24,248 nucleotides of DNA. It comes from a virus. Below, in pieces: positions 1,164 to 24,248 of the stretch; positions within the stretch are counted from its first letter, which is position 1; each line of letters starts with the position of its first letter. The notes beneath the pieces were generated by a model. It saw only the letters and a program-made list of their open reading frames with translations. It searched no databases and had not been told where the DNA came from. The position numbers and the translations under genes were made by a program. The stretch is from positions 1 to 24,248 of the IMG/VR virus record IMGVR_UViG_3300008117_000714. The stretch is one strand, 5' to 3'.

Positions 1164-3242
1164 TTATCCTCCAAATACTATTGACATTGCAATAGCCTTT
1201 CCTGTTGATACTGTGTTTGTTAATTTTGATCCGTCACCAATGAAATAACTAGCTGTAACATTTCCTGCTGTATTGACCCTATTGACAAATAATTGATTTA
1301 AATAATTGCTCGAAGACCCTATACTATACGTGTTTGAGGCGGCGGCTAAAATATTACCATTTAGTGTAGCTTCGCCAATAGTTAAAGCGTAAACTGAAGT
1401 AGGATCTCCTGCAATGTTTCCTGTGATAGGAGGATCTGTATTTGCTGTAAATTTATTTCCTGTGCCTGACGAAAAAGCAGTGCCATTCGCTGCCCAGAAA
1501 ATTCCAGTATCAGTCTGAATACCATAGGCTCTCAAATTACCTGAATTTGGATTGTAAGTTAACGATGTATTGACGTTTTGCGCTGCATTTCCGGTGGTTG
1601 CATTTACAAACGAAACATATGCAGTGCCTGATGAAATGTTTGATGTAATCTGTGTGTTGATAGCATTGGTGGCAGTGCCGGCTGTGCCATCTATTCCAAC
1701 GCCAGTCAGTACCTGTGAAGCACTAGCTCGATTGTAATTGACATCTGTTGTGCCAATAAACAGTGTTCCGTATATGGTTCCATTTAGGCCGCCGGCAAAA
1801 ATATTGCCTGCCACACCCATACCACCTGCCAACACCACTGCACCGGTAATAGTGCTTGTTGAGGTCGTGGTGTCGGTAAACACAATGTTACCAGTGGCAT
1901 CATCGTAAATTATATTAGTGCCACCTAATGTTCCACCGTTATTGTATTGTATTGCGCCATCTAGTCCTGTAGACGGACCGCCAATTGGGGTATTGTTGCC
2001 AGCCCAATATAAACCTGAAGTATATAATGATTCTGAATAAATGTTGCCGCTGACGCCGGCGCCACCAACTACAACTAAAGCCCCGCTTGCTACACTTGTA
2101 CTGGCTACTCCCGATGCGGCTACTATATTACCACTAGACGTAATTGTTGTTCCTACGTGTAAAGCTCCGCCTATTCCTACTCCGCCAACAACAACTAACG
2201 CTCCAGTGGTGGTGTTTGTACTTGCTGTTCCTGAATAAGCAACAATGTTGCCACCACTCTTCAGTGTTAGCGTGTTATTTAGATCATTAAAGTAACCAGA
2301 ATTTGGAGTAACAGTTCCAATGGGAGTATTTTGTAAACTGGCAGCACTAAGTAAACCGCCAACGTAAGTGTCACCACTTACACCCATTCCGCCTCTGACA
2401 ACTAATGCACCTGTAGTTGTGCTTGAACTGGCTGTGCCTGAATTGGCCACTATATTACCGCCAACATTCAATCTTCCACTGATGCCGGCACCGCCGCTAA
2501 CTCTTAATGCACCAGTGGTGTTGTTTGAACTTACTGTTGTATTTGCTAGTGTTAGTTCACCAGACTTTATAGTACCGTAGGTGTTACCAGTAAAAACATT
2601 TCCAACTTCTCTACCACTATCATACCATTCTAGATAACCACTATCATTGGCTCGGCCTAAGAATGCGTGTTCGTCTTGATAATCATAGTAATGAAATTTT
2701 AAACCAATGTCTTTGCCGTCGTTAAATGTCCACGGTGCAAGATTGGCCTGAGTATGTAAGTCTATGACAGCATCACTTATGCTAAGATTTTGCTGTCCTA
2801 TTGTAAAAATATTGCCTTCGACCTGCAAATTACCAGTGATCTTGGCAGTAGCAAAAACAGCATTGCCACTGCTTAAATTGTCTGCAACAAATGTTGATGC
2901 ATATGACGCAGCAGGTGCGCTAAAAGGATTACCGTTTGAATATAAAAAATTATCTGTTCTTAAAGAGTTAACTATTATTGTGCCAGCTGTAACATTTGCG
3001 TAACTAGTTACAGTTAAATTGCTGTTTGTGATGCCAGTATCATCAGTGAATGCTACAACAAATGAATTACCGCTTTCGCTCCACACTAAAGCTACGTTAG
3101 ATTTTACACCTAAATTTCTATTAACCAGAAATCCAACATCAACATTGGCCACAGTGGAATCGCTATTTAAAAGCGTGATAGGATCTTGAAGCTTTGCTTT
3201 AGTGGTATCAGATTGTATAAATCTAGTTCTGGTTAATGCCAT
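1164..3242 (-). CDS. Repetitive tail-fibre-like protein (692 aa)
   Basis: This is a long Gly/Asn/Thr/Ser-rich protein, the first gene of the unit driven by the late promoter at 3264-3271. Residues 31-70 hold a module shared with other proteins here (DVGFLVNRNLG...NVALVW). Residues 155-225 carry a motif known from marine T4-like fibres (IDLHTQANLAPWTFNDGKD, then HYYDYQDEHAFLGRANDSGY). Five copies of a beta-repeat, GAL(V/R)V-x-GG-x-G(V/I)-x-G, follow at about 242-262, 275-297, 344-365, 386-402 and 465-484. The C-terminal part has an IGSSSNYLNQLFVNRV...FIGDGSKLT segment and ends AIAMSIVFGG, a tail also seen in variant form in the 349-residue protein here. The fold is probably an extended trimeric beta-structure. 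Which fibre it belongs to cannot be told. Confidence 0.88.
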   Translation of the reverse strand: MALTRTRFIQSDTTKAKLQDPITLLNSDSTVANVDVGFLVNRNLGVKSNVALVWSESGNSFVVAFTDDTGITNSNLTVTSYANVTAGTIIVNSLRTDNFLYSNGNPFSAPAASYASTFVADNLSSGNAVFATAKITGNLQVEGNIFTIGQQNLSISDAVIDLHTQANLAPWTFNDGKDIGLKFHYYDYQDEHAFLGRANDSGYLEWYDSGREVGNVFTGNTYGTIKSGELTLANTTVSSNNTTGALRVSGGAGISGRLNVGGNIVANSGTASSSTTTGALVVRGGMGVSGDTYVGGLLSAASLQNTPIGTVTPNSGYFNDLNNTLTLKSGGNIVAYSGTASTNTTTGALVVVGGVGIGGALHVGTTITSSGNIVAASGVASTSVASGALVVVGGAGVSGNIYSESLYTSGLYWAGNNTPIGGPSTGLDGAIQYNNGGTLGGTNIIYDDATGNIVFTDTTTSTSTITGAVVLAGGMGVAGNIFAGGLNGTIYGTLFIGTTDVNYNRASASQVLTGVGIDGTAGTATNAINTQITSNISSGTAYVSFVNATTGNAAQNVNTSLTYNPNSGNLRAYGIQTDTGIFWAANGTAFSSGTGNKFTANTDPPITGNIAGDPTSVYALTIGEATLNGNILAAASNTYSIGSSSNYLNQLFVNRVNTAGNVTASYFIGDGSKLTNTVSTGKAIAMSIVFGG

Positions 3243-3323: not shown

Positions 3324-4106
3324 TTACAATCTGCCCACTACCACTTCAATGACTCCTTCTACACCATCAAAGTTTTCCAGTGCTTTACCTATTACTGTGC
3401 CAATCTGCGGGTTATGATCTGGCCTAGCAAACCCGCTACCAGCACTTACCAACATGTCCCCTTTGGCAATTTTACCGCGAACTTTACAAGGAACTCTTCC
3501 TAAAAGTGCTAAAGTAACTACATTTGGCCCGTTTAGGCTACCATTCATTAAATGAGCAGGATTAGTAGAAACTACACCGGCCACTCGTCTGGAACCATCT
3601 TCGGCTATGGTGACTTCAGCTGCGCCGCCAAATTCTAGCACTGTACCAGGTTCATAGGAATTGTCAGCTTGATAGTTTTCTGCCAAGTCGGCGTATCTTG
3701 CTTGAGTTGATACTCCGTAAAATGTTCCCCACCAGCTGGTTGTTGTACCAAGATTTTGTGTGGTATTTGCTGTAGGAACCATCCAGCCAGCAGTAAACAA
3801 ATTGCCTGATATTCCTACCCCGCCCCTGACTACCAAGGCACCAGTAGCTGCATTACTACTTAAAGTAGTTGCTTCTAATACAAGATTTGAACTGAACGCC
3901 CCTGTGGTACCTTTTACAGTTCCTCCATCTAGGTGAACAGCAAGATTAGAATTTGTAGCAGTCCCGCTGAATGTGGAAGCATAAATTGTACTAAACTGAA
4001 AACTAGTATTGCCAAGGAATACGTTGGCATTAGCCTGAGGTTGAATGTTTCCATTAAACCTTATTGGATTTGGTCCAAATGCTGTATCTATTCTTTGTAA
4101 TGCCAT
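3324..4106 (-). CDS. Fibre-associated protein with conserved C-terminal YADLAENY/GRVPCKV domain (260 aa)
   Basis: Residues 1-60 resemble a fibre attachment or linker segment (ANVFLGNTSFQFSTIYA). One beta-repeat, GALVVRGGVGISGNL, lies at 89-103. Residues 137-260 form a compact domain: RYADLAENY, EPGTVLEFGG, VAGVVSTNPAHLMN, LLGRVPCKVRGKIAKGDML, GTVIGKALENFDG, ending EVVVGRL. I know this domain from C-termini of marine T4-like fibre proteins. Its layout faintly recalls the self-cleaving or chaperone domains at the ends of other phage tailspikes (Peptidase_G2-like), but I see no proof of catalysis. It is the last gene before the terminator at 3273-3301. The start follows AAGGAA by a normal spacing. 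It could cap or fold one of the long fibres encoded upstream. Confidence 0.85.
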   Translation of the reverse strand: MALQRIDTAFGPNPIRFNGNIQPQANANVFLGNTSFQFSTIYASTFSGTATNSNLAVHLDGGTVKGTTGAFSSNLVLEATTLSSNAATGALVVRGGVGISGNLFTAGWMVPTANTTQNLGTTTSWWGTFYGVSTQARYADLAENYQADNSYEPGTVLEFGGAAEVTIAEDGSRRVAGVVSTNPAHLMNGSLNGPNVVTLALLGRVPCKVRGKIAKGDMLVSAGSGFARPDHNPQIGTVIGKALENFDGVEGVIEVVVGRL

Positions 4107-7809: not shown

Positions 7810-9411
7810 TTACAATTTCATTAATGTTGGTGTAACTTTGATAGACAGGTTAGCTCCTGCGCTGCTGGCATTCAAATATGCAGTACCAGCAGAAATATTA
7901 CTCGAGAAGGTGGCCAAATTGGCTGCACCAGTAAAGGTCACTGCGTACACTTCAATGCTACAAGTAGTGCCATTGTGAACAGCAATTACTTCTGCGGCCT
8001 GATATTCACCTCCGCCTTCGTCGCTGAGTTGAACAAAGAACTTGCCACTTCTATATGTTGCTATTGGGAATCCATATACAGCATCTGTTCCACTAGGAGC
8101 AACATACTTGCCTCTTATATCATCAGTTACATGTTCTGCGTTTGTGGTAAACGTAGAATTAGAAAATAACGTAGTGAAATGACCTGGTCTAGCTACATTA
8201 CCGCCAATTACTGTGTCATCAAGACTACCACTGCTAACTGTTGCACCTGTAATAGATCCGCCGCTGAGATTAATATTGCTGCCAAAGAAATAATCTACAC
8301 GATTGTTAGGACTTCCAATATTACTAGAAGTTACAGGATAAAAATCTCCATGTGTATCTATTCTCCAATTTTCGACGCTACCTAAACTGACATTACCAGT
8401 GTAAAATCTCAATGCTGTGTCGTCTGTTACAAACTGATTGAATCCATTGGTTGACGCGATCCCAGTTACCGTTTGCGTTGTGCTCAAAACTCTGGTGTCT
8501 ACAATGTCACCAATTGACGGCGCTTCAGTAAATGTAACTACATTTCCGCTTACACTATAAGCAGTTGTAGGGATCTGTAATACACCATTGATAGATACCA
8601 ATGTACCGCTTGTTGTTGAATTAGACGTTAAATAAAACTGGGTATTTGACCCATCAACGTTTCCATTGATATCTCCGCTGGAATTTGAGAAAGTTCTACT
8701 TGTAATTACTGTAAATGTACTGCCAGTTGTGTTCCATTGTCCATCACCGTAAAACTCTAAGGCATTTGTGGTGCTGTTAAAACGAATCATTCCGTCTACA
8801 TCAGTAAAGCCAACGGATCCTGGTCTTTGAGCTGATGTGCCCACTGGTATTAACAATGCATCTGTACTGCTTACCACCAACTTTGCGCCTTGTACAATGT
8901 TTCCAGTTGTGACATTACCGCCAATGCTGACTTGATCGTAAGTGGCATCTGCTGCAATATAGACTAAACTTCTTTCGTTGACACCTCTGACGATGGTATC
9001 GTGTGTGGTCCTATTGCCATTGATAACGGCACCTTGACCAATGTAAACATTACCGTTGATTGCTGCGCCACCTGTGCCAGTAATAACCAACGCACCAGTT
9101 GTGTTTGCAGTACCGGCTGCGGCTGTGTAAACTGTGGTATTTCCAGAACTGATAACAATATTACCTGTTGCCAAAGTTAAATTACCAGTGGCTGCTAAGG
9201 CTGTAAATGTGCCAGCAGCTGGTGTAGCATTACCAATAATTGTATTGTTAAGTGAAACAGCAGTTAAAGTTGTAAAAGCTCCGGTAGCAGCAGTGTTTGC
9301 TCCAATTGGATAATTGTCAGCAAAGCCGCCTGTAATTGTTGCGTTTGCAGTGCTGAAGTTGGTTATTAGACTGGTTGTTATATAGGCATTGGTTAATGCA
9401 CTTATATAACC
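7810..9411 (-). CDS. C-terminal fragment of a frameshifted tail-fibre gene
   Basis: This open frame has no credible start of its own: the first possible initiation codon near its annotatable part is a TTG at 9174 with no ribosome site, and the protein-like sequence runs well upstream of it (ALTNAYITTSLITNFSTANA, then PIGANTAATGAFTTLTA). It is the direct continuation of the gene at 9402-11795, cut off by the 26-base tandem duplication. From the TTG, residues 107-232 hold the shared cassette (LLIPVGTSAQRPG, IRFNSTTNALEFYGDGQW, LVSINGVLQIPTTAYSVSG). The C-terminal domain at about 345-454 (KYVAPSGTD, SGKFFVQLSDEGGGEYQAAE) resembles the end of the 573-residue fibre. As it stands this part would be untranslated or made only after frameshifting. 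If the duplication is an assembly error, it is simply the second half of a 1319-residue protein. Confidence 0.85.
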   Translation of the reverse strand, partial: GYISALTNAYITTSLITNFSTANATITGGFADNYPIGANTAATGAFTTLTAVSLNNTIIGNATPAAGTFTALAATGNLTLATGNIVISSGNTTVYTAAAGTANTTGALVITGTGGAAINGNVYIGQGAVINGNRTTHDTIVRGVNERSLVYIAADATYDQVSIGGNVTTGNIVQGAKLVVSSTDALLIPVGTSAQRPGSVGFTDVDGMIRFNSTTNALEFYGDGQWNTTGSTFTVITSRTFSNSSGDINGNVDGSNTQFYLTSNSTTSGTLVSINGVLQIPTTAYSVSGNVVTFTEAPSIGDIVDTRVLSTTQTVTGIASTNGFNQFVTDDTALRFYTGNVSLGSVENWRIDTHGDFYPVTSSNIGSPNNRVDYFFGSNINLSGGSITGATVSSGSLDDTVIGGNVARPGHFTTLFSNSTFTTNAEHVTDDIRGKYVAPSGTDAVYGFPIATYRSGKFFVQLSDEGGGEYQAAEVIAVHNGTTCSIEVYAVTFTGAANLATFSSNISAGTAYLNASSAGANLSIKVTPTLMKL

Positions 9412-9439
9412 ACATTGGTTAATGCACTTATATAACCAC
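9387..9439. repeat. Perfect 26-base tandem duplication causing a frameshift
   Basis: The block beginning CATTGGTTAATGCACTTATA at 9387 recurs identically at 9413; positions 9387-9413 equal 9413-9439. Because 26 is not a multiple of three, the frame downstream moves and a TAA arises at 9404-9402. Taking out one copy joins the two flanking open frames exactly and gives ISALTNAYITTSLITNFST, which nearly equals VSALTNAYITTSNITNFST in the neighbouring fibre at 11857-13578. Confidence 0.97.
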
Positions 9440-11795
9440 CGCTGACAACAATGTTTCCGCTACTGAAGTTGGTGGCAATCAATGTGGTTACATTGCCGTT
9501 AGTAGCATTTACAGTGGTTCCTGTTAGAGTTTGTCCGTCTACTGTGGTAAACACGCCCGAACTAGGAGTAACTGCACCAATTGGAATATTGTTGATACCG
9601 CTTGTACCAGTACCACCTCTAATCCAAACTGGTCCTGTAGTAGCTGCCCACAAACTGGTTGCTGCTCTAAAATTGGATGCATAAACGTTGGCTGCGTTGG
9701 TAGCACCAATTGACATGTTATCAATTGTACCAACATTTAACGGATTGATTGTGACCAATGCCGGAGCCGACTGCGGACTCAAGTAAACATTGGCAGTCAC
9801 GTTTAATGCTGCTAGTTTGGCAGCAGTGCTTGCTTCAATTGTGGTAAAGTATCCCGGCGCTGCTGTGTTTGCACCAATTGGGAAGTTGTCTGCATAACCA
9901 CCTGTGACTACTGCATTGGCTGTGCTGAAGTTAGTTGCCACCAAAGTAGTCGCGTTCGCATTTGTAGTGTTTAGATCTGTAGTGGTAGTAGTACCGGCTG
10001 TTATAGCAGTAATATTACCTGAGCTAATGTTAGCAGTGGTAACCAACAATGTTGGTATATTTAAATTCTTGTTAAAGTTCCAACTATCATCACTGTTAGT
10101 GTAAGTTAAAGTGGCATTGGCACCTGCTACAGTTAAACCGGCACCATCAGCTTGAGCGCCAGATGTAGCATTGGCTGCTATAGTGATATTTTTATCTTCT
10201 ACATTTAAATTGGCACCAATACCTACACCACCAGTAACAACCAGCGCACCAGTTGTGGTATTGTCGCTTTCAGTGGCACTGGTAACTTGTAAATTACCTG
10301 TGCTAAAATTTGCGGCATATAATGTTGTTACATTGCCATTGGTTGCATTTAAAGTTGCCCCAGTGATTGTATATGCTGTTACATTGGTTGCGTTAGCAGT
10401 TGTAAAATTGCCAGTGCTGGCAGTGTTTGGTCCTATAGGTGTTGCGTCAATGTAGCCGCCGGTGATGCGACTGTTTCCTGAACTAAAATTAGTTGCAACC
10501 AGTGTAGTTACGTCAACATTACTGCTAGTAAGATTGGTTATAGAGGCATCAATTACATTAGCATTGATCATCGTAGCTATATAACCGCCTGATATAGTTA
10601 CATATGATGCAACTAAATTACCTGTGCCAATATTAGACAATGATGCATCTGCAGCTATTAATGTTGTAAACGATCCGGTGCTAGCTGTTGAATTTCCAAT
10701 TGGCGTGTTATTAATTGCAGCAAAGTTAGCAAGTGCATTTGTAGCACTCAGTGTTGATCCACCTAGATAAAAATTACCGCCTACTCCAGCACCACCATCT
10801 ACAATTAACGCACCAGACGTAGTTGATGAGCTTGCTGTGGAGGTGTTGACTCTTAATCCTGAATTGGTTACTGCAACATGAAGTTTAATCGCCGAACCTT
10901 CAGTGTGCGAAAGGATTACCAAGTTACCTGTAGCTAGGGCCGAATGATGAATTAAATAACCGTCATTTGGATAAAATCCAGGGAAGGTAGGATTGTTGTA
11001 TGTACTGGAATCTATACCAAGATTAATGTACCCATCAGTATCGTTACCATTATCTGCTGTTAATACAAGGTCTGTTGATGCATTAGAACCGCTGTTAATG
11101 TTTTGGAAGTTGACTTGTGCATATGTGTCAACATTTCCACTCATTTGTAACACAGTTGTAGGAAGTGCAGTGTAAGTAGTTGTACCTGCATATAACGCAC
11201 CAATGCCGCCAGCATTACCAAAGAATACACCAGTGTTGGAGAATGTTCCACCAACTGGTACATTTATATTTCCGCTTAACTGAATATTGCCTGCTACAAT
11301 GTTACCAGCAAATGTGCTTGGTCCTTGTACCCATAGATCCCCTGTTATCCCAACACCACCGCCACCGGGAACAACAATAGCACCAGTGGTATAATTTGTT
11401 GCGTTTTGACCTGACGCTGCTACAATATTACCTGTTGAGGTCAGTCCATTTACATTAGTATTAGTTACATTTAGAGTAGTAATTGTAGCTGTCTGTGCAA
11501 CGCCACCATAATTACCTAATGTCCCAAGGGCACGATTGAATAATATACCTACATCATACGCAGGAACACCTACATAGCCGTTATTGAGAGTAATAAGGCT
11601 GTCAGAAACTAATGTATCAATCGAGTTAATAGTAGTAGTATTACCTGAAACATTAAGATTTCCGGTAATACTAACGTTAGAATTAAGGGTTAGATTTGCA
11701 TTAAATAAACTACCTACCAGTGTGCCCGGGGCAATTTTTTGAAAGGTAATTGTGCTATCAGTAATCTGATTGTTCTTAATTCTAGTGACGGCCAT
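9402..11795 (-). CDS. Large repetitive tail-fibre protein, truncated by frameshift (797 aa as read)
   Basis: I place the start at ATG 11795 (MAVTRIKNNQITDSTIT), with GGAGA a few bases upstream, rather than at the overlapping GTG at 11798. The N-terminus, including SLITLNNGYVG and YDVGILFNRALG, is the standard opening of long fibres in marine T4-like phages. Beta-repeats of the GA(L/I)VV-x-GG-x-G kind and several PIG-x2-T-x3-G-x-FTT repeats (PIGNSTASTGSFTTL, PIGPNTASTGNFTTA, PIGANTAAPGYFTTI, PIGAVTPSSGVFTTV) make up most of the length. The stop at 9402-9404 lies inside a 26-base tandem duplication. Without it the frame continues through 7810-9411 for 1319 residues in all, with at least two more repeats and a C-terminal domain. 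A trimeric fibre missing its C-terminus would usually not fold, so this version is probably non-functional unless the frame is restored. Confidence 0.88.
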   Translation of the reverse strand: MAVTRIKNNQITDSTITFQKIAPGTLVGSLFNANLTLNSNVSITGNLNVSGNTTTINSIDTLVSDSLITLNNGYVGVPAYDVGILFNRALGTLGNYGGVAQTATITTLNVTNTNVNGLTSTGNIVAASGQNATNYTTGAIVVPGGGGVGITGDLWVQGPSTFAGNIVAGNIQLSGNINVPVGGTFSNTGVFFGNAGGIGALYAGTTTYTALPTTVLQMSGNVDTYAQVNFQNINSGSNASTDLVLTADNGNDTDGYINLGIDSSTYNNPTFPGFYPNDGYLIHHSALATGNLVILSHTEGSAIKLHVAVTNSGLRVNTSTASSSTTSGALIVDGGAGVGGNFYLGGSTLSATNALANFAAINNTPIGNSTASTGSFTTLIAADASLSNIGTGNLVASYVTISGGYIATMINANVIDASITNLTSSNVDVTTLVATNFSSGNSRITGGYIDATPIGPNTASTGNFTTANATNVTAYTITGATLNATNGNVTTLYAANFSTGNLQVTSATESDNTTTGALVVTGGVGIGANLNVEDKNITIAANATSGAQADGAGLTVAGANATLTYTNSDDSWNFNKNLNIPTLLVTTANISSGNITAITAGTTTTTDLNTTNANATTLVATNFSTANAVVTGGYADNFPIGANTAAPGYFTTIEASTAAKLAALNVTANVYLSPQSAPALVTINPLNVGTIDNMSIGATNAANVYASNFRAATSLWAATTGPVWIRGGTGTSGINNIPIGAVTPSSGVFTTVDGQTLTGTTVNATNGNVTTLIATNFSSGNIVVSGGYISALTNVVI

Positions 11796-11815
11796 CACTT
11801 ATCTCCAATTTAGTG

Positions 11816-11823
11816 TATTTACC
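11816..11823 (-). promoter_or_regulatory. Weak late-promoter-like site (GGTAAATA)
   Basis: In the 61-base gap before the large fibre gene the minus strand reads GGTAAATA, two bases off TATAAATA, about 21 bases before the ATG at 11795. Position fits an internal booster promoter, but the match is imperfect and the region is AT-rich. Confidence 0.3.
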
Positions 11824-11856
11824 AAAATTGTAAATATTAAAATTGGGTTGAGAAAT

Positions 11857-13578
11857 TCAAATTATAAAATAAGTTTTTTGCAGTCTCATCTGAGCAGATG
11901 AGCTGGCGGTAGCGTAAACTTGAACAAGCGATCCGCTTATGTTTGCTGTAATTGTTGCCAGTGTAGACCCAGTTATAGCCCTGTTTACGTTACTAACTGA
12001 CACTGTGGTGTCAAATTGAGTTACAGCAAATTCAGCAAATTCTGCTGCTCCTGAATCTGCTGTAGTACTGGCTAGGTATTTGACGCTCCTGTATACGGTT
12101 TTATTGAAACTATCAATTAAAACTGCTCCAGTTGATAAAGCAATATTTCCTGCATTAATTTCTTGTGCATTTTCTGCGGTAACTGTACCAGCGGCCAAAT
12201 ACCTTACTGAAATAATATCTGTGACTAATGGTATTTCAGCAAATGTAATTGTAGTACCTGCAACAGTGTATGCGGTACCAGGAGCCTGTAGTGTACCGTT
12301 GATGCTGACAATAATACCTTCAGGAGTTGATGAATAATCTAAGGTATAGCTAATGTTGACGCCGTCGGGCGAAATAGTTTGATTATTAATTTGGCTTAAT
12401 AAACTTATCCACGTTGATCCGTTATATACTTCAATTGAGTTAGTAGAATTATTCCAACGTATTGCGCCAGCATAAGCACTAGGTTGTTGACCAGTGGTAC
12501 CCGATGGCAATTGTAGGGCGCTGGTTCCATTGATAACCACAACGGCATTACTATTACTCAACAATGGTGAAAGTACAAGGTTACCAGTCAAGCTTGACAC
12601 AGTAATATTTTCAATTTTAATATTACCTAAATTTGCCGCGATAATATTTGCAGTTGTAATATTAGCACTAACAATCCCAGAAATACTTCCACCTGTAATC
12701 AAAGCGTTTGCAGTGCTTAAATTATTAAACACAGAGGTGGTGGCTGATAAGTTTGCTAATCCTGACACATAGCCACCAGTTATCACTGCATTGCCAGTTG
12801 ATAAATTAGTAGAATACGCGGTCGTTAAATTTGCCGTTGTAGAATTTAATTCTGTTGCATACCAAGATGCTGTGTTACCAGTTGCGATAGTGGCATTAGA
12901 CAAATTATCTATATATCCGCCATTTATAACTGCATTACCAGTACTAAAGTTTGTTATATTTGAAGTTGTAATGTAGGCGTTTGTTAAAGCTGAAACATAT
13001 CCGCCAGAGATTACTGCGTTACCGGTACTAAAATTAGTTGCATAAGCTGTAGTTAAGTTTGCGTTAGTTGAATTTACAGTTGCGGCATAAAGACTACCAA
13101 AATTACCTGTAGTAACAGTGGCATTAGTTAGCATAGAAATATAGCCGCCGGATATCACTGCATTGGCTGTATTCAATGATCCAAAATAAGCAGTGTCAGT
13201 GACACCAATATTTCCAAAAATACTAGTACCACCAGTGTTGGATATGTTACCGCTAAAATTATTTGCAAATAAATTACCAGCGTACAAATTGCCTGTAATA
13301 CCTGCACCACCTATGACATTAAAGGCTCCTGTGTTTACATCCGAGGCCTGAGCGCCTGATGCTGCTACTAGGTTTCCAAAAATTTTAGTTATGCCTGATA
13401 CATTGGCGGTGCCAGAGACTGTGAAAGTATCAACTACAGAATTGGTATTGACACCAAATCTGAAGTTGGTAAAATCCATATAGGTCAGCGGCTTACCGTT
13501 TGTGGTAAACGCAAGATCAACACTTTGTCTATCTAGGTCACTAAAAAGAAGAGCGCCGCTTATTCTGCCTATAGCCAC
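11857..13578 (-). CDS. Tail-fibre protein with GGY(I/V) repeats and C-terminal cassette (573 aa, GTG start)
   Basis: The start is GTG at 13578 (MAIGRISGALLFSDLDRQSVDLAF), with AGGAG a few bases before it; this N-terminus is typical of structural/fibre proteins in marine T4-like phages. Residues 138-303 hold at least five units of the form (F/L)ST(G/A)NA(V/L)I-x-GG-x-(I/V)S. Residues 354-462 are the shared cassette (LQLPSGTTG, IRWNNSTNSIEVYNGSTW, IIVSINGTLQAPGTAYTVAG). The last 80 residues (YRSVKYLASTTADSGAAEF) form a domain that also ends the large split fibre gene downstream. The two proteins therefore look like paralogues that share repeats, cassette and C-terminal domain, and could co-assemble or be alternative fibres. 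A run of similar repeats on the DNA level makes recombination between the two genes plausible. Confidence 0.88.
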   Translation of the reverse strand: MAIGRISGALLFSDLDRQSVDLAFTTNGKPLTYMDFTNFRFGVNTNSVVDTFTVSGTANVSGITKIFGNLVAASGAQASDVNTGAFNVIGGAGITGNLYAGNLFANNFSGNISNTGGTSIFGNIGVTDTAYFGSLNTANAVISGGYISMLTNATVTTGNFGSLYAATVNSTNANLTTAYATNFSTGNAVISGGYVSALTNAYITTSNITNFSTGNAVINGGYIDNLSNATIATGNTASWYATELNSTTANLTTAYSTNLSTGNAVITGGYVSGLANLSATTSVFNNLSTANALITGGSISGIVSANITTANIIAANLGNIKIENITVSSLTGNLVLSPLLSNSNAVVVINGTSALQLPSGTTGQQPSAYAGAIRWNNSTNSIEVYNGSTWISLLSQINNQTISPDGVNISYTLDYSSTPEGIIVSINGTLQAPGTAYTVAGTTITFAEIPLVTDIISVRYLAAGTVTAENAQEINAGNIALSTGAVLIDSFNKTVYRSVKYLASTTADSGAAEFAEFAVTQFDTTVSVSNVNRAITGSTLATITANISGSLVQVYATASSSAQMRLQKTYFII

Positions 13579-13587
13579 GGCTGCTCC

Positions 13588-14013
13588 TTATGCAGCATCA
13601 GTGCTGTTGAGATTGTGTACTACAACAATTTTGTTAGGGTTAACACCTGGTGCTGGCGGCGGGCTGGTGAATGTGATCGATGTTGTGCCGTTTACGGTAT
13701 AGTTGATATTGGGTTGTTGGTATACTCCACCAATTTGAACCAAAATTGCATTTGCGTCTGATTCGACTTGAGTCATTGTGAAAACAGTTTGTACAGCATC
13801 ACCTGTAAACTCGTCTACATTGATGTTAACACTACCAATTTTGGCAACCTGATTCCATACTCCGGCAAAATACAATTCAACTCTATTATTGCTGGTATTA
13901 AATCTAATTTGTCCGTTTTGCGGTACATCAGGACCAATACTGTTGCTTCCTAATGGCAATTGAATAGCGTAGCTACCGCCTACAAGCTGAGTGTTTTTAA
14001 GATAACGTCCCAT
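13588..14013 (-). CDS. Small structural protein made of the fibre cassette alone (141 aa)
   Basis: MGRYLKNTQLVGGSYAIQLP is the opening of a small structural protein common in T4-like cyanophages. Residues 16-135 are the two-part cassette found inside the larger fibres: IQLPLGSNSIGPDVPQNG, IRFNTSNNRVELYFAGVW, and then ILVQIGGVYQQPNINYTVNG with ITFTSPPP. Here the cassette makes up nearly the whole protein, which suggests an independently folding unit that was copied into, or split from, longer fibres. The gene begins three bases after the stop of the gene at 14017-14340 and ends ten bases before the next start, so it is tightly packed in the fibre operon. The virion position is unknown to me; adaptor or fibre-root roles are possible. 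Confidence 0.85.
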   Translation of the reverse strand: MGRYLKNTQLVGGSYAIQLPLGSNSIGPDVPQNGQIRFNTSNNRVELYFAGVWNQVAKIGSVNINVDEFTGDAVQTVFTMTQVESDANAILVQIGGVYQQPNINYTVNGTTSITFTSPPPAPGVNPNKIVVVHNLNSTDAA

Positions 14014-14016
14014 TCG

Positions 14017-14340
14017 TTATACACCTATAGTGCTTACAGAAGCCACAATGCTATTTCCAACATTGGCATTGGCTCGCAATGTGTCACCATTGCCTAAAAC
14101 TAGTTTTTCCCAATCAACAATGTATGTATCACCTGCAGTAATCACTTTGTTTTTGTAAACAATATTATTTGCGTTGGCAACAAAACCAGCTGGTACCAAA
14201 TGTAATGTAAAAGCAGTGGCCGCAGTGTTGGTGTTGCAAAAATACATAGTAGTCACCGCCACACCGCCTAAGCCGGTTGACGCTAATACATTGGCTGCTG
14301 CCTGTCCTGAATCTACTAGTACGGTATTGTGTATTGCCAT
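14017..14340 (-). CDS. Small virion-associated protein (107 aa)
   Basis: The protein is short and beta-rich, starts MAIHNTVLVDSGQAAANVL and ends with a KLVLGNGDTLRANANVGNS segment. This LVL-x-GD-x-L-x-A pattern, after an AGDTYIVDW stretch, resembles the 118-residue protein at 806-1162 and small proteins beside fibre genes in related phages. There is no signal peptide, membrane helix or enzyme motif. The ribosome site AAGGAC overlaps the stop of the previous gene, so translation is likely coupled. Function is unknown; conservation of the type and position points to a structural or assembly role. Confidence 0.8.
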   Translation of the reverse strand: MAIHNTVLVDSGQAAANVLASTGLGGVAVTTMYFCNTNTAATAFTLHLVPAGFVANANNIVYKNKVITAGDTYIVDWEKLVLGNGDTLRANANVGNSIVASVSTIGV

Positions 14341-14349
14341 TTTTTGTCC

Positions 14350-14730
14350 TTATAATACTAACGCATAAACTTGTGCTGAAGTAACTGCGGTTGTAGATCC
14401 AGTTTGGATAGCCTCATATGTGCTACCATCCTCGGTTAATACCCATTTGCCCAATGTCTCGTTCCATAGTAGAGCAACATTAGCAAAAGACCCTCTATCT
14501 ACATTCAATCCTGCTGTTACAAGAGTAACACCCGGGCCAGTTTCACCTGCGTTGACTGTAATAATGTTATCTGTGATATTTAAATCAGTTTTAGTAATTG
14601 CTGTAGCGTTTCCACCAACATAAAGGTTTCCTTGTACGTACACAGTGTGTGTACTCAAAGTAATGTTCGCATTTGCCTTAATCTTGTTGGTAATTAGGTA
14701 ATCGTCGTTAAGACTTTTTACTACTGGCAT
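14350..14730 (-). CDS. Small fibre-module protein, first gene of the fibre operon (126 aa)
   Basis: The chain reads MPVVKSLNDDYLITNKIKAN, then a fibre connector (VYVQGNLYVGGNATAI), then DNIITVNAGETGPGVTLVTA and DRGSFANVALLWNETLGKWV. The last two segments are the same module as residues 31-70 of the 692-residue fibre and the N-terminus of the large split fibre. It is thus an isolated N-terminal fibre module, possibly an adaptor or a co-assembling short subunit. Its end, SAQVYALVL, resembles the C-terminal tails of other proteins here. It is the first gene behind the late promoter at 14752-14759, with AAGGAT as ribosome site. Confidence 0.82.
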   Translation of the reverse strand: MPVVKSLNDDYLITNKIKANANITLSTHTVYVQGNLYVGGNATAITKTDLNITDNIITVNAGETGPGVTLVTAGLNVDRGSFANVALLWNETLGKWVLTEDGSTYEAIQTGSTTAVTSAQVYALVL

Positions 14731-14751
14731 TTTAGATATCCTTATTCAGTG

Positions 14752-14759
14752 TATTTATG
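14752..14759 (-). promoter_or_regulatory. T4-type late promoter (CATAAATA)
   Basis: CATAAATA on the minus strand, 22 bases before the ATG at 14730 and directly downstream of the terminator at 14785-14808. It has the same sequence and nearly the same spacing to the start codon as the site at 3264-3271, which supports both. Confidence 0.77.
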
Positions 14760-14784
14760 CATACATAAATTTGAATTACCTAAT

Positions 14785-14808
14785 AAAAAACCCGCCGAAG
14801 CGGGTTTT
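14785..14808 (-). terminator. Rho-independent terminator with UUCG loop
   Basis: On the minus strand a 9-bp stem (AAAACCCGC/GCGGGTTTT) closes a TTCG loop of the extra-stable cUUCGg kind and runs into TTTTTTATTA. It ends the one-gene unit at 14828-15337. Confidence 0.93.
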
Positions 14809-14827
14809 AATTTTGATGTTTTATGTA

Positions 14828-15337
14828 TCAATGAGTAAAAACATTAGCAAAACCACTTGTGCCACTAGTGGCTACATAATCGCTACCACGATATTTGTAA
14901 CGTACATCGCTTTGGTCCCATACGTACTTGTTACTAATACGACTTACATAAAAAGCTGTGTTGCTAGTGTTGTATCCGGCAATTGAGCAAGTACTTGCTG
15001 TGCTGCCTGGAGTCCCATTGGCTGCATCAGCTCCTGCAGCTAGGGTACAAATTGTAGCACTGGCGTTAGCGTGAGTATGATTTTCAACTGCGCCTACTGC
15101 ATTTGCAACAAAGAAAGTGGTTGCACCTTTCTGTGCAATAATATAAGCATTGCTATGTAAAATGCCTGAACTATCTCTAAACTGTACTTTGACTGTTTTT
15201 ACACCAGTAGATGTAATCCACTGTGGACGTCCGCCAGTACTACCAATTGTACTACCACTTACTGGTGGATTGAAAACTTCCTGGTCGACTAAAGTTCCGT
15301 CGGCTCTTTTGTGACTGATTTTTAAACCTCTTGCCAT
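14828..15337 (-). CDS. Unknown protein encoded as its own unit after the capsid gene (169 aa)
   Basis: I choose ATG 15337 (MARGLKISHKRADGT), which has AAGGAG eight bases upstream; a longer frame from 15409 would start on top of the late promoter. The chain has PPVSGSTIGSTGGRPQW near residue 25, then KTVKVQFRDSSGILHSNAY, an Ala/Gly/Thr-rich middle (CTLAAGADAANGTPGSTAST) and a tyrosine-rich end (SNKYVWDQSDVRYKYRGSDY). No family is recognised with confidence. It has its own late promoter, an approximately 66-base leader and a strong terminator, and directly follows the major capsid gene. That setting suits an abundant virion protein, such as a capsid decoration protein, but this is inference from arrangement only. 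Confidence 0.85.
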   Translation of the reverse strand: MARGLKISHKRADGTLVDQEVFNPPVSGSTIGSTGGRPQWITSTGVKTVKVQFRDSSGILHSNAYIIAQKGATTFFVANAVGAVENHTHANASATICTLAAGADAANGTPGSTASTCSIAGYNTSNTAFYVSRISNKYVWDQSDVRYKYRGSDYVATSGTSGFANVFTH

Positions 15338-15409
15338 TTTTATTTCTCCTTTAAATTGGCGTTCTAGGCCTACGCGGTTGGCTCCGCAATAAGTTCTTAT
15401 GAACATCAA

Positions 15410-15417
15410 TATTTATT
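15410..15417 (-). promoter_or_regulatory. T4-type late promoter (AATAAATA)
   Basis: AATAAATA on the minus strand, one base off the consensus, just past the terminator of the capsid gene. Unlike the other late promoters here it lies far (73 bases) from its start codon, leaving a leader of about 66 bases with a GCGG/CCGC hairpin at 15373-15386 and a GTTC/GAAC hairpin at 15393-15404. Confidence 0.75.
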
Positions 15418-15426
15418 GTACCCAAC

Positions 15427-15448
15427 AAAAAACCGCCTTGCGGCGGTT
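15427..15448 (-). terminator. Rho-independent terminator of the capsid operon
   Basis: On the minus strand a 7-bp stem (AACCGCC/GGCGGTT) with a GCAA loop of the GNRA type runs into a T-tract, 27 bases after the gp23 stop. It closes the head operon. Confidence 0.93.
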
Positions 15449-15474
15449 TAATGTTTCCCATCCCGAGTGGAAAA

Positions 15475-16671
15475 TTACTGGAACGATAGGTTAGAAACAG
15501 CAATCTCACCTAGGTAGTCAGCTGCGTTACCGAACGATGATGCTGTGTTTGTCAACTCAACATAACCGTAACGTGTCATAAAGCCTACTACTGGTTCGAA
15601 TGTGCTTGGATCTAGAACAACGCCAGAGCTCATTAGAGGAATATATGGGCAGTAGAACGCGGCTGCATCAGCCTCGCTTGAACCCTTATAACCAACTAGA
15701 ACTGCTTGGCTATCGTTTGCATAGCTGTCAACATAGATACGCATTGCACCGTTTAGTGTACCAACAAACTTGGTGTTGGTTGGTGCTTCAAATGTACCTT
15801 CAGTTGTACGAGCAAATGCTGAAGTTGTTGCGCTCTGTAACACAGTTAGAGCTGCTGGACTTACAACTGCCCAGTTACCAGCGCCACGACGTGTACGTGA
15901 AGCGATTAGGTTTGCTGTACGGTTGATTAGAACAGCTAGTGCAGCGTGTTCGTCACCAACGAAAGTAGCAGTACCACTTACAGTTGCTTGGTCAAATGTA
16001 AACTCAGTTGCTGCCAAGCTACGTAGTGAACCTAGGATCTCTTGGTCAATTTCAACTGTGATTTCTTGTGCAAGAGCTGCCATGATTTCTGCTTCGATGT
16101 CCAAACCATGCATGGCTTGTGCATCTTGTGCAGCTTCAAATGTCCAGCGAGCACTTAGCTTACGTGTCTTCGCTTCAACAACTTGCTTCAAGATTTGTAC
16201 ATTGATACGGTTACCAGGTACGCCTTCTAGAGTAGAAGTTGTAGCTGCCTTACCAGTTGTAGCTGTACCACCTGGGGTCAAACCAGAGTAAGCAACAGCG
16301 ATCTTGAATGGGCTTAGTGCTTCATCACCAGCTGTGGTACCAGTAGCATATGGGCTAGCGGTGTCAGTGGTGTTGTCTGCATAACGAACACGTAGAGTGT
16401 GGATCTGTGCAACAGGTCCAGTCATTGGCTGAACACCAACGATTTCGTTTGCAATAACTGTTGGCATAACACGACGAATCACTGGTAGAATGACTCGATT
16501 TAGTGTTGCAACGTTTGAAGCGGCTGTAGCACCAGCTGTAGCTGCTTCCATCAAGTGCTTGCGAGTGTTTTCTAGAACTACACCCATTGTGGTTCTTTTA
16601 GAACCGTTTAAGCCTTCTAACAGAGCGTCTTTAGTTTCGCCCCAACGGCTTTCTAGTAATGCTTGTGTCAT
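15475..16671 (-). CDS. 23: Major capsid protein gp23
   Basis: This protein builds the hexamers of the capsid shell. Family marks are clear: RRVMP (66-70), GVQPMTGPVAQIHTLRV, QVVEAKTRKLSARWTFEAAQ, AMHGLDIEAEI, GTLNGAMRIYVDSYAND, VLVGYKGSSEADA, FYCPYIPL and FEPVVGFMTRYG, in the same order as in T4 gp23. It has 398 residues, against about 521 in T4; the long insertion after the GVQPM region is largely missing, so it is a compact version. In T4, gp21 cuts the N-terminal prosegment after a (L/I)-x-E motif; LME at 40-42, just before a small-residue stretch (AATAGATAASN), is the best candidate here. AAAGGAA is the ribosome site. It is the last gene of the head operon, before a strong terminator. Confidence 0.97.
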   Translation of the reverse strand: MTQALLESRWGETKDALLEGLNGSKRTTMGVVLENTRKHLMEAATAGATAASNVATLNRVILPVIRRVMPTVIANEIVGVQPMTGPVAQIHTLRVRYADNTTDTASPYATGTTAGDEALSPFKIAVAYSGLTPGGTATTGKAATTSTLEGVPGNRINVQILKQVVEAKTRKLSARWTFEAAQDAQAMHGLDIEAEIMAALAQEITVEIDQEILGSLRSLAATEFTFDQATVSGTATFVGDEHAALAVLINRTANLIASRTRRGAGNWAVVSPAALTVLQSATTSAFARTTEGTFEAPTNTKFVGTLNGAMRIYVDSYANDSQAVLVGYKGSSEADAAAFYCPYIPLMSSGVVLDPSTFEPVVGFMTRYGYVELTNTASSFGNAADYLGEIAVSNLSFQ

Positions 16672-16688
16672 TTTTATTCCTTTTCTCC

Positions 16689-16696
16689 TATTTAGG
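16689..16696 (-). promoter_or_regulatory. Possible weak late promoter before gp23 (CCTAAATA)
   Basis: CCTAAATA on the minus strand, with two differences from TATAAATA, lies 18 bases before the gp23 start. An extra promoter would suit the most abundant protein, but the leader would be about 11 bases and would begin at the ribosome site, so support is low. Confidence 0.25.
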
Positions 16697-16698
16697 GT

Positions 16699-17805
16699 TT
16701 ACTTTAGCCCTGCTAAACGCTTGATCTCAAAAACGTTATGAACATTTTCTTCAATTACAGGTGTATTAGCAGATTTATCACCAGTTACTTCTACACGGCT
16801 TTCTGCCAACATAGCCTTAGGCTGTGCAGCAGGTTTAGCTGAGTTGTTTAGAACAGCTGGTAGATACTTTTCGTATGCACTCTGCAACTTAGCAGTTTGC
16901 ACACTTTCAAGAAGTTCGCTCATGACTACAGCTTTCTCCTTGTTTAAAGGTTTCAATAGATTAGCAAGAATTTCCTTGCGCTCTGTTGATTCTTTAATAA
17001 TCTTAATTTCTTTGTCTTTTGATTCAACAATCATTGCAGCCTGTTCAGCAACTTGTTTAGCTTCCGCTAGGGCTTGCTCTTTGGCAGCAACAACAGCTTG
17101 TAGCTTGCGAATTTCTTTGTTCTCATTTAAGTGAGTAACAGCAAATTCACTTGCAAAAGCTTCAAAGATTTGACGGCCAAACATGTTCTCACGAGCAAGT
17201 TGGATATCTTCTTTGAGTTGAGTCATTTCTGACTCTAGTTTCTTGGTAATTGATTCCTTAACTAGTTCTGCAGATCTAGCAATGAAATTCTGTTGTAGTT
17301 CAGCAAGTTTGTCTTTGGCACCAGCGATTAGACGAACCTTTGTCTCAACCACTGCTTGCTTGTCTTGCTCAAATTCTTGAATTTCTTCTGCTAGTGACTT
17401 GATCACAAATGATTCTAGCTTACTAATGCTATTTTCATACTGCTTGCGATCTTCACGTAGTTCGCGGATTTCTTCGGCCAGTTTGCCAACCATAAAATCG
17501 TTAAACTTAGTGCTGCTTTCCATCATGTGAACTTTAAACTTCGCACGATCTTCTGCTAGAGCTTGTTTCTCTGCTGCGAACTCTTCGAGTTCGTTTTGTA
17601 GAGATTCAGTTACCATTTTGTCTAGAGCTTCAACCATAACTTGCTTGTCATGTTGGTATCTTTGAGCGAATTCTTCGCGAAGTTCTGCACGGACACTTTC
17701 ACGAGCTTCAAGAAGTTTTGCTTCCCACGCTTCCGTAATAGCTTGTTGCGTATCTTCGTTTATGATGCCGCTGTCTACCAATGGTTTGATAGCATCTAAT
17801 AACAT
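16699..17805 (-). CDS. 22: Prohead core scaffolding protein gp22
   Basis: This forms the inner core around which the prohead shell assembles and is then degraded by gp21. The N-terminal part (QQAITEAWEAKLLEARESVR, then LREEFAQRYQHDKQVMVEAL) is diagnostic of gp22 in T4-like phages. Residues from about 25 to 290 are almost wholly charged and helical with long heptad-like stretches (EEFAAEKQALAEDRAKF, EEIRELREDRKQYEN), as expected for a coiled-coil scaffold. A short Ala/Pro linker follows and the chain ends NVFEIKRLAGLK, a conserved tail that in this family is thought to touch the shell. It lies between gp21 and gp23, as in T4, with AGGAG before the start. At 368 residues it is longer than T4 gp22 (about 270). 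Confidence 0.95.
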   Translation of the reverse strand: MLLDAIKPLVDSGIINEDTQQAITEAWEAKLLEARESVRAELREEFAQRYQHDKQVMVEALDKMVTESLQNELEEFAAEKQALAEDRAKFKVHMMESSTKFNDFMVGKLAEEIRELREDRKQYENSISKLESFVIKSLAEEIQEFEQDKQAVVETKVRLIAGAKDKLAELQQNFIARSAELVKESITKKLESEMTQLKEDIQLARENMFGRQIFEAFASEFAVTHLNENKEIRKLQAVVAAKEQALAEAKQVAEQAAMIVESKDKEIKIIKESTERKEILANLLKPLNKEKAVVMSELLESVQTAKLQSAYEKYLPAVLNNSAKPAAQPKAMLAESRVEVTGDKSANTPVIEENVHNVFEIKRLAGLK

Positions 17806-19745: not shown

Positions 19746-21461
19746 TTAAATTGTGGCGCCAGCAGGTGCTGCTTGTGCAGGTGCACCAACCGGGCCTGCG
19801 CCCATTGGTGCTGCTGCCCCTCCAGGTGCTCCTGCTTGACCTTCGGGCGGTGCTTCTGCGGGTGGTGCAACATTTTCCAAATCACCGGCTATGCCGCCTG
19901 GGCTGATACCTACACTTCTCAAGTTGGGATCATCAACAGGTGCTATTTCTACATCACCTTGTTCTTCGGCCCACATAGTTTCGTTTTCACTCATTTCTTG
20001 TTCACTCATGCCCAAGTAACGCTTCATTAGGAATCGTTTACTGAAGTAAGGATATGATTCCAGTTGAGTAAAAGTGGCAATCCGTGCGCTGTCTACATCA
20101 GCCTGACGATACTGTGCAAAGTTCTGCGGAGGTTCAAAGATCAATTCAAACAATTGGCTGTCAATATTAACACCGCGCCAGCGCATGAATAGCTTGAACT
20201 CTTGATCTAGTGTTTCAATTATTGCATTCTGCAAGCGTTGGCAATATTGATTGAAACGCCATTCTTGAATCAGGGCGGTGCCCACACGTCCATCATTGTA
20301 TGACTGTGTACTGTCTTCTACTGCCACAGGCAAGTAACTGCTAGGAATCCGCAAACCGCGGAACAATTTGTTAGTAAAGTAGCGTAAGTCAGTGATTTCA
20401 CCAAGGTTACTTGCACCTGCAAGAGTATCTACACTGCTTCCACGTTGATCACTGGTTACTGGAAAGAAGTAGTCTTCCATTTGTGCCAATGGATTGTATG
20501 TGGCATCCATCATGTTAGCACCACCACCGGTCTGTGTAGGAATTCTACGTTGACTGATTTCGTTTTTGATACGTTCTACATAAGCCATGGCCATGTGACT
20601 TGGCATGTTGCCTACATCAATTTTGAATACTCTGCGTTCTGGAGCTCGTTGCACACGATAGATGATAATAGCATCTTCCAGCAGTTCTTTTTGTTTGAAC
20701 ACTTTAAAAACATTTTCTAATACGCTGGTACCAAATGGCCAATACACATCTAGGCCTTCTGTAAGGCTGAGATGCACAATGTGTTCGGCATTGATAGCTG
20801 CTTCATTTTGAGCACGGGTAAATCTACCACCACCACCCAATGGTACGTTAGGCTGCACATAACTGCCGCTGGGACCACCTACCTGTGGATGATTCATGTA
20901 TTGATCGCTGGTAGTTACTGCTGTAACAGTCAAGTTTTCAAAATTGGGATTGACATCTTTAAGAATGTACTGTTCGGGTTTTTTACCTTCACTTTCATTG
21001 ACAATAACCTTGACTACCTTGCTCATTTCTACCCAGAATAATTTAAAGTTTTCTGGATCTCTAACAAACACTTGATCACCGTATTTGATAGTATTTCTTA
21101 CTATCTTGAATATTCTGCTGTTAAATTCGTTTAACTTGACCCATTGTTGTAGCTGTTCTTTGATAATTTTTACTTCATTATCAGTGGGATTATCTTTGAA
21201 TTTAATATCAAATGGCGAATTATTGGCTTCGTTTTTCTGTGTCATAAACTCAGAAAGAATATCTAACGCAGCATTAATTTCTGAATCCATGTCCATTTGT
21301 TCGTATTGATTGTAACGCTCAATACGATTAGGATGTCCAATATAAACGTCCGGCAGATTGCTTTGATAGTTTCTATAGCCTGGATCTGGCATGCGACCGC
21401 TGCCAATTGGACTGATGTTACTAGGAAGATTGCTAGATTTAAAATACTTACGCCAAGTCAT
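19746..21461 (-). CDS. 20: Portal vertex protein gp20
   Basis: The portal dodecamer occupies one capsid vertex, starts prohead assembly and passes DNA. Diagnostic segments are NRIERYNQYEQMDMDSEINAA (47-67; T4 gp20 region), IVRNTIKYGDQVFVRDPEN, IYRVQRAPERRVFKIDVGNMP (267-287), YNPLAQMEDYFFPVT, DLRYFTNKLFRGLRIPSSYL and FELIFEPPQNFAQYRQ. The length, 571 residues, is near T4 gp20 (524), plus a Pro/Ala/Gly-rich tail from about 530 to the end that T4 lacks. It is the first gene of the head operon, behind the late promoter at 21483-21490. The ribosome site is weak (TTGAGAT). No changes at conserved positions were noticed. Confidence 0.96.
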   Translation of the reverse strand: MTWRKYFKSSNLPSNISPIGSGRMPDPGYRNYQSNLPDVYIGHPNRIERYNQYEQMDMDSEINAALDILSEFMTQKNEANNSPFDIKFKDNPTDNEVKIIKEQLQQWVKLNEFNSRIFKIVRNTIKYGDQVFVRDPENFKLFWVEMSKVVKVIVNESEGKKPEQYILKDVNPNFENLTVTAVTTSDQYMNHPQVGGPSGSYVQPNVPLGGGGRFTRAQNEAAINAEHIVHLSLTEGLDVYWPFGTSVLENVFKVFKQKELLEDAIIIYRVQRAPERRVFKIDVGNMPSHMAMAYVERIKNEISQRRIPTQTGGGANMMDATYNPLAQMEDYFFPVTSDQRGSSVDTLAGASNLGEITDLRYFTNKLFRGLRIPSSYLPVAVEDSTQSYNDGRVGTALIQEWRFNQYCQRLQNAIIETLDQEFKLFMRWRGVNIDSQLFELIFEPPQNFAQYRQADVDSARIATFTQLESYPYFSKRFLMKRYLGMSEQEMSENETMWAEEQGDVEIAPVDDPNLRSVGISPGGIAGDLENVAPPAEAPPEGQAGAPGGAAAPMGAGPVGAPAQAAPAGATI

Positions 21462-21482
21462 ATGTTATCTCAATGAGTACTA

Positions 21483-21490
21483 TATTTATT
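21483..21490 (-). promoter_or_regulatory. T4-type late promoter of the head operon (AATAAATA)
   Basis: AATAAATA on the minus strand, 22 bases before the portal start and just downstream of the tape-measure stop. The spacing to the start codon is the same as for the sites at 3264-3271 and 14752-14759. Confidence 0.78.
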
Positions 21491-21493
21491 GCG

Positions 21494-23776: not shown

Positions 23777-23786
23777 AATTTCTGCC

Positions 23787-23794
23787 TATAAATA
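23787..23794 (+). promoter_or_regulatory. T4-type late promoter, plus strand (TATAAATA)
   Basis: Exact T4 late consensus on the plus strand, with the expected start near 23801 and a leader of about 25 bases before the ATG at 23826. It drives the baseplate-hub gene. Confidence 0.85.
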
Positions 23795-23807
23795 TAGTAT
23801 TATCAAT

Positions 23808-23815
23808 TATTTATA
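23808..23815 (-). promoter_or_regulatory. T4-type late promoter, minus strand (TATAAATA)
   Basis: Exact T4 late consensus on the minus strand, with the expected start near 23802 and a leader of about 25 bases before the tape-measure ATG at 23776. Confidence 0.85.
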
Positions 23816-23825
23816 GGAATCAAAA

Positions 23826-24248
23826 ATGGATCAAAAACCCGTAAATCCTTTACGAGCACATTTCAGACAGCCCGCAATTTATTTAAAATTACCCAGTGGC
23901 GGACAATTTTGGAACGGTGGTTTAGATTTACCAGCAGTGGGAGAGATACCCATCTATCCAATGACTGCCCGGGATGAAATCCTGCTTAAAACACCTGATG
24001 CTTTGTTGAATGGTCAAGGCATAATAGATGTAATTCAAAGTTGTTGCCCTAACATCACCGATGCTTGGCAAATGCCCAGCGTTGATGTTGATGCTGTACT
24101 GATAGCAATTAGAATTGCCAGCTACGGCACTACCATGTCTGTGGACACAACCTGCCCTAACTGCAAAACAGAAAACAATTTTGATATAGATTTAACTGGT
24201 TATTTGGACAATATTGTGTTGCCAGATTACAATCAAAAGTTCACTTAC
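23826..24248 (+). CDS. Baseplate-hub protein, T4 gp26-like (3' end outside window)
   Basis: The frame MDQKPVNPLRAHFRQPAIYL runs 141 codons to the right edge with no stop. Segments PLRAHFRQPAIYLKLPSGG, YPMTARDEILLKTPDAL, VIQSCCPNITDAWQMPS and IAIRIASYGTTM are typical of the T4 baseplate-hub family usually labelled gp26 in T4-like cyanophages. TTCPNCKTEN with its two cysteines could be half of a metal site. About 200 residues are expected in full, so roughly 60 are missing. AGGA lies seven bases before the ATG. It is the only plus-strand gene and points away from the rest, suggesting that a baseplate module begins here and continues beyond the window. The hub link fits the adjacent tape-measure gene, since the tape measure ends at the hub. 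Confidence 0.83.
   Translation, partial: MDQKPVNPLRAHFRQPAIYLKLPSGGQFWNGGLDLPAVGEIPIYPMTARDEILLKTPDALLNGQGIIDVIQSCCPNITDAWQMPSVDVDAVLIAIRIASYGTTMSVDTTCPNCKTENNFDIDLTGYLDNIVLPDYNQKFTY

Follow-up and report, generated by a model that had tools for sequence, protein, structure and literature searches.

Introduction

Phase variation by simple-sequence repeats, as in Neisseria and Campylobacter, is characterized by many short units, by conserved repeat tracts, and by frequent switching. The locus analyzed here, a fiber-like gene in a virus record in which a 26-nt unit stands twice in tandem, resembles those tracts in that a change of copy number would put the gene into another frame unless it amounted to a multiple of 3. 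It differs from them in having two copies only, a long unit, and a single contig in which it is seen.

Tandem duplications are also known in phage fiber and baseplate genes (PMC6365445, PMC9887876), a precedent that favors reading the present one as a real mutation. The tail fiber gene of phage EfV12-phi1 carries an in-frame tandem duplication of 1.8 kb (PMC6365445), and in gp075 of phage K8 the duplicated unit, with 21 bp, amounts to 7 codons (PMC9887876); in both cases host range or infectivity was extended. A tandem duplication in the T4 gp37 adhesin is attributed to Tetart et al. 1996, as cited in PMC6365445 and PMC9887876. Our locus is like these three in being an exact tandem duplication, with one- and multi-copy forms, in a gene for a putative host-contact structure. 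However, unlike the units of EfV12-phi1 and K8, the 26-nt unit breaks the frame, and it is known here from one assembled contig. For a phage fiber switched by the copy number of a repeat, our search of the literature yielded no clear precedent.

A third point of comparison is not biological. Common errors in metagenome contigs include sequence left in duplicate where two pieces overlap, as well as a wrong count of local repeats (Chen et al. 2020, PMC7111523), and they count in favor of a fault of assembly here. The present case is similar in that sequence is duplicated within a protein gene rich in internal repeats. On the other hand, the overlap error described in that work leaves Ns between the copies, whereas our sequence contains none, which counts against the same reading.

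Results and Discussion

One Gene in Two Frames

The sequence studied, hereafter the window, is a whole IMG/VR virus record of 24,248 bases with no ambiguous positions. The features at the site of the duplication are the following:

9387 to 9412, no strand assigned: first copy of the 26-nt unit CATTGGTTAATGCACTTATATAACCA; it holds the TAA that ends the upstream frame (9404–9402, minus strand)
9413 to 9438, no strand assigned: second, identical copy of the 26-nt unit, not present in a sister contig (L005) that is otherwise identical here
9402 to 11795, minus strand: upstream frame, from ATG 11795 to the premature TAA, encoding the N-terminal and repeat region of a fiber-like protein
7810 to 9459, minus strand: downstream frame, encoding the remaining repeat region and the C-terminal domain, with no start of its own

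The two copies are exact (9387–9412 equals 9413–9438), and chance is no plausible source of a perfect tandem repeat of this length in 24 kb. A reading made earlier from the sequence alone had given the coordinates of a 27-nt repeat; the exact duplication is present, but its unit is 26 nt, and C9439 merely happens to match as well. As 26 is not a multiple of 3, the second copy shifts the frame.

The same sequence-only reading held that the duplication splits one fiber gene, and in this it proved right. The upstream frame, whose ATG is closely preceded by a GGAG, stops inside the repeat. Removal of one copy joins the two frames into a single one, which runs uninterrupted from the ATG for 1319 codons. 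The downstream frame is open from 9459 to its stop at 7810 and has, as had been claimed, no convincing start with a ribosome site: from 9459 as far as TTG 9174 it contains no ATG, GTG or TTG, the sole upstream start candidate with a weak purine match is ATT 9423, and no convincing ribosome site stands at either TTG 9174 or ATT 9423. Residue 17 of this frame is the point of the join, and it is also where similarity to relatives starts.

Over 532–533 aligned codons, the dN/dS of the downstream frame was 0.034, 0.089 and 0.038 against three relatives (L007, L008 and L009, respectively), values that are approximate because dS is near saturation. Ratios of this order (0.03–0.09) point to strong purifying selection on the C-terminal part. 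This selection, together with the lack of a usable start, identifies the C-terminal part as the back half of one gene. We rejected the interpretation of two genuine adjacent genes, given that the second frame has neither start nor ribosome site and that the N- and C-terminal domains share one frame in 59 distinct contigs, some of them near-identical to each other. We also looked for a relative in which two real genes adjoin at the split point and found none. Thus one gene is split, and a single copy of the unit holds both frames together.

The overlap of the two frames (9459–9402) and the presence of identical codons 26 nt apart would in principle permit a ribosome to frameshift or hop between the copies, so that the full fiber would still be made. 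We consider such a rescue very improbable, however. The overlap contains no slippery heptamer of the type X-XXY-YYZ, no start in the downstream frame has a convincing ribosome site, an Rfam search of the window returned no element, and no relative carries an insert of this kind.

Nature and Setting of the Protein

The gene sits in a structural cluster, together with genes for the portal, the prohead protease and the major capsid protein. The capsid protein is 66–70% identical to those of jumbo phages, including PA5oct, Serratia BF and Sinorhizobium Phosso. A weak match to Peptidase_G2, an autoproteolytic cleavage domain, was found at 3324–4106 of the window.

The C-terminal part of the split gene matches the tail fiber family PHROG 18673 over a short stretch (E = 2.5e-07). 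It had no match among the isolated phages of INPHARED, and a Pfam search of the fiber frames returned none. A structural model of the last 440 residues was poor overall (pLDDT 69, pTM 0.30) and confident over approximately the last 90 residues; its fold matched fiber proteins from uncultured Caudovirales and, partly, T4 gp9. Because of the PHROG match and the fold matches, we regard the gene as fiber-like. A role in host recognition may be supposed from this predicted fiber-like structure.

The protein had been described as nearly identical to the neighboring fiber. This holds for a short motif, GGY[IV]SALTNAYITTS.ITNFST, but not for the whole, as identity overall is about 37% over the shared part of the two C-terminal regions. 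The protein encoded at 1164–3242 lacks the similar C-terminal region that is carried by its homologues in L007 and L009, which suggests an exchange of fiber ends.

Comparison with a Sister Contig

A variable-gap pattern scan for the same flanks retrieved a single other contig, L005 (IMGVR_UViG_3300032050_001487), in which there is one copy of the unit and the gene is open. Against positions 7883–17658 of the window, L005 shows no substitution and four indels, all inside the fiber gene: the window carries the additional 26 nt, whereas stretches of 78, 30 and 144 nt found in L005 are missing from it. The three losses are located as follows:

10200 to 10201, minus strand: loss of 78 nt; the block is present in L005 and relatives, and junction homology is 11 nt
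10873 to 10874, minus strand: loss of 30 nt; the block is present in L005 and relatives, and junction homology is 0 nt
11498 to 11499, minus strand: loss of 144 nt, encoding 48 highly conserved residues; the block is present in L005 and relatives, and junction homology is 1 nt

Each block is conserved among those relatives that can be aligned at its position, none of which shares the deletions. No other IMG/VR contig contains the 26-nt duplication, nor does any contain the junction of the 144-nt deletion.

These data bear on two interpretations that must be weighed against each other. In the first, the extra copy and the three losses arose together in assembly. Four indels without a single substitution, all in one gene, speak for it, as do the absence of the duplication and of the 144-nt junction from other IMG/VR contigs, and junction homologies of 1, 0 and 11 nt fit gaps that were closed up better than they fit recombination. 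In the second, the 26-nt duplication is a real, recent and non-programmed event in one lineage that inactivated the gene, leaving a truncated protein without the C-terminal region, and the in-frame losses are real diversification. This is quite possibly what happened, although it is not the account we would choose. It is supported by the fact that all three losses keep the frame (a chance of 1 in 27), the outcome to be expected if a real gene were under selection; the same fact weighs against an assembly fault. The 78-nt loss, with its 11 nt of homology, also resembles a possible real deletion. Conversely, a real origin must accommodate an odd ratio, four structural changes with no substitution outside a small patch described below, and deletions of highly conserved blocks with 0–1 nt of homology, of a kind that no relative shows.

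The algorithms themselves are an argument on the side of a real event, because assemblers based on k-mer graphs should not produce joins unsupported by reads. Consequently, given the frame-keeping losses, the lack of Ns and this logic of assemblers, a real recent allele stays a serious rival. Under a real mutation, loss of one copy may revert the duplication, yet this would not make it a dedicated switch.

Tandem Units in Related Loci

Comparison with the homologous gene, which had been proposed as a check, gave a uniform answer: in L005, and in every relative that could be compared, the unit stands once and the frame is open. The frame is unbroken in L007 (1736 codons), L008 (2064), L009 (1416) and L010 (1937), and L007, L008 and L009 contain a single copy of the 26-mer in a gap-free alignment. 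In L071 and L091, long open frames with the N-terminal domain had no match to the C-terminal domain. L064 was considered as a second broken example and was discarded, as its downstream frame begins with an ATG of its own (8669) and codes for a protein in its own right. On the sequences compared, then, the gene appears to be broken in this record only.

We surveyed the exact tandem units of 12–200 nt across the window and every locus retrieved, counting identical units once. All 29 other distinct units of at least 12 nt in the related loci were multiples of 3, the 26-mer being the sole exception; when shorter units were included, one 10-nt unit in L065 was the only other. Tandem duplication is thus a normal growth route for these proteins, apparently held in frame by selection. 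Many exact tandem duplications, of 12–99 nt, were seen in the structural genes of related phages, namely L008, L010, L033, L034, L051, L056, L066, L104 and L107, among others.

The survey cuts both ways. Close homologues of the gene range from 1273 to 2064 codons, and this range, with so many recent exact duplications, means that indels are normal here, in favor of a real mutation. But a 26-nt unit that alone breaks the frame among those of at least 12 nt fits a real mutation poorly and an assembly fault well.

The sequence-only reading had also offered a slippage-type on/off switch. In such a switch, one- and two-copy forms would change into each other within a natural population of a jumbo phage and so toggle the fiber gene. 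In principle, slippage during replication can remove one of two identical 26-nt copies that lie side by side, and both forms do exist in otherwise nearly identical records. We nevertheless judge such a switch improbable. There are just two copies, the two-copy state is found in one record, the repeat is conserved in no relative, and the one- and two-copy states are known from separate records rather than from within one population. In the single-copy allele, moreover, the ends of the duplicated unit have 1 nt in common, so nothing predisposes the duplication to recur. With the unit unrepeated in relatives and the other units of at least 12 bases in frame, the proposal of a switch was not borne out.

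Other Near-Identical Contigs

A further contig, L020 (IMGVR_UViG_3300008266_000735), aligns to window positions 21986 to 11499 without indels and with 17 substitutions, and is also 100% identical to positions 20500–24248. It ends 58 nt into the 144-nt block that the window lacks; therefore, a second assembly also breaks in the fiber gene.

Three near-identical contigs (L019, L020 and L029) concur against the window at 11 positions in 17659–17749. It follows from their agreement that the window contig differs outside the fiber gene too, a point in favor of faulty assembly. Against this stands the nature of the patch: the window's version is mostly synonymous and resembles strain sequence, so that it looks like true strain variation, which would suit a real mutation instead. 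With 11 substitutions in 91 bases, recombination or mixed assembly is possible. Part of the window's version was searched for in IMG/VR and had no exact match. Next to the patch, at 17750–17805, the first 56 bases of the gene that starts at 17805 are identical in the aligned relatives, synonymous sites included, and the following 60 bases or so vary; the 56 bases may possibly hold an overlapping signal.

Wherever near-identical contigs can be compared with it, it is the window that stands alone, both at the indels and at the patch. Independent assemblies contradict it at each: L005 at the duplication and the three losses, L020 at the start of the 144-nt block, and L019, L020 and L029 at the patch.

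Origin of the Two-Copy Sequence

Most likely, the duplication is an assembly slip or a one-off mutation rather than an on/off switch. Of the three options raised at the outset (assembly error, population variant, switch), assembly error seems to us somewhat more probable than a real population variant, given that three conserved blocks present in L005 are missing from this very gene; the switch we set aside. We thus lean, from the comparison of contigs, toward the two-copy sequence being a fault private to one contig and made in assembly. Pieces of a long, repeat-rich fiber gene would have been joined imperfectly: at one join, a 26-nt overlap would have been retained twice, and at three further joins 144, 30 and 78 nt would have been dropped. 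In the phage population itself, the gene is most likely intact and about 1400 codons long, like that of L005.

An intact fiber gene is ordinary for these phages, so the biological claim itself matters little. The case, with four indels in one such gene and not one substitution against the sister contig across these 9.8 kb, is rather a caution that repeat-rich fiber genes may give the impression of being split or phase-variable when they are probably neither. If both states were proven in one population, however, this would be a new kind of phage fiber switch.
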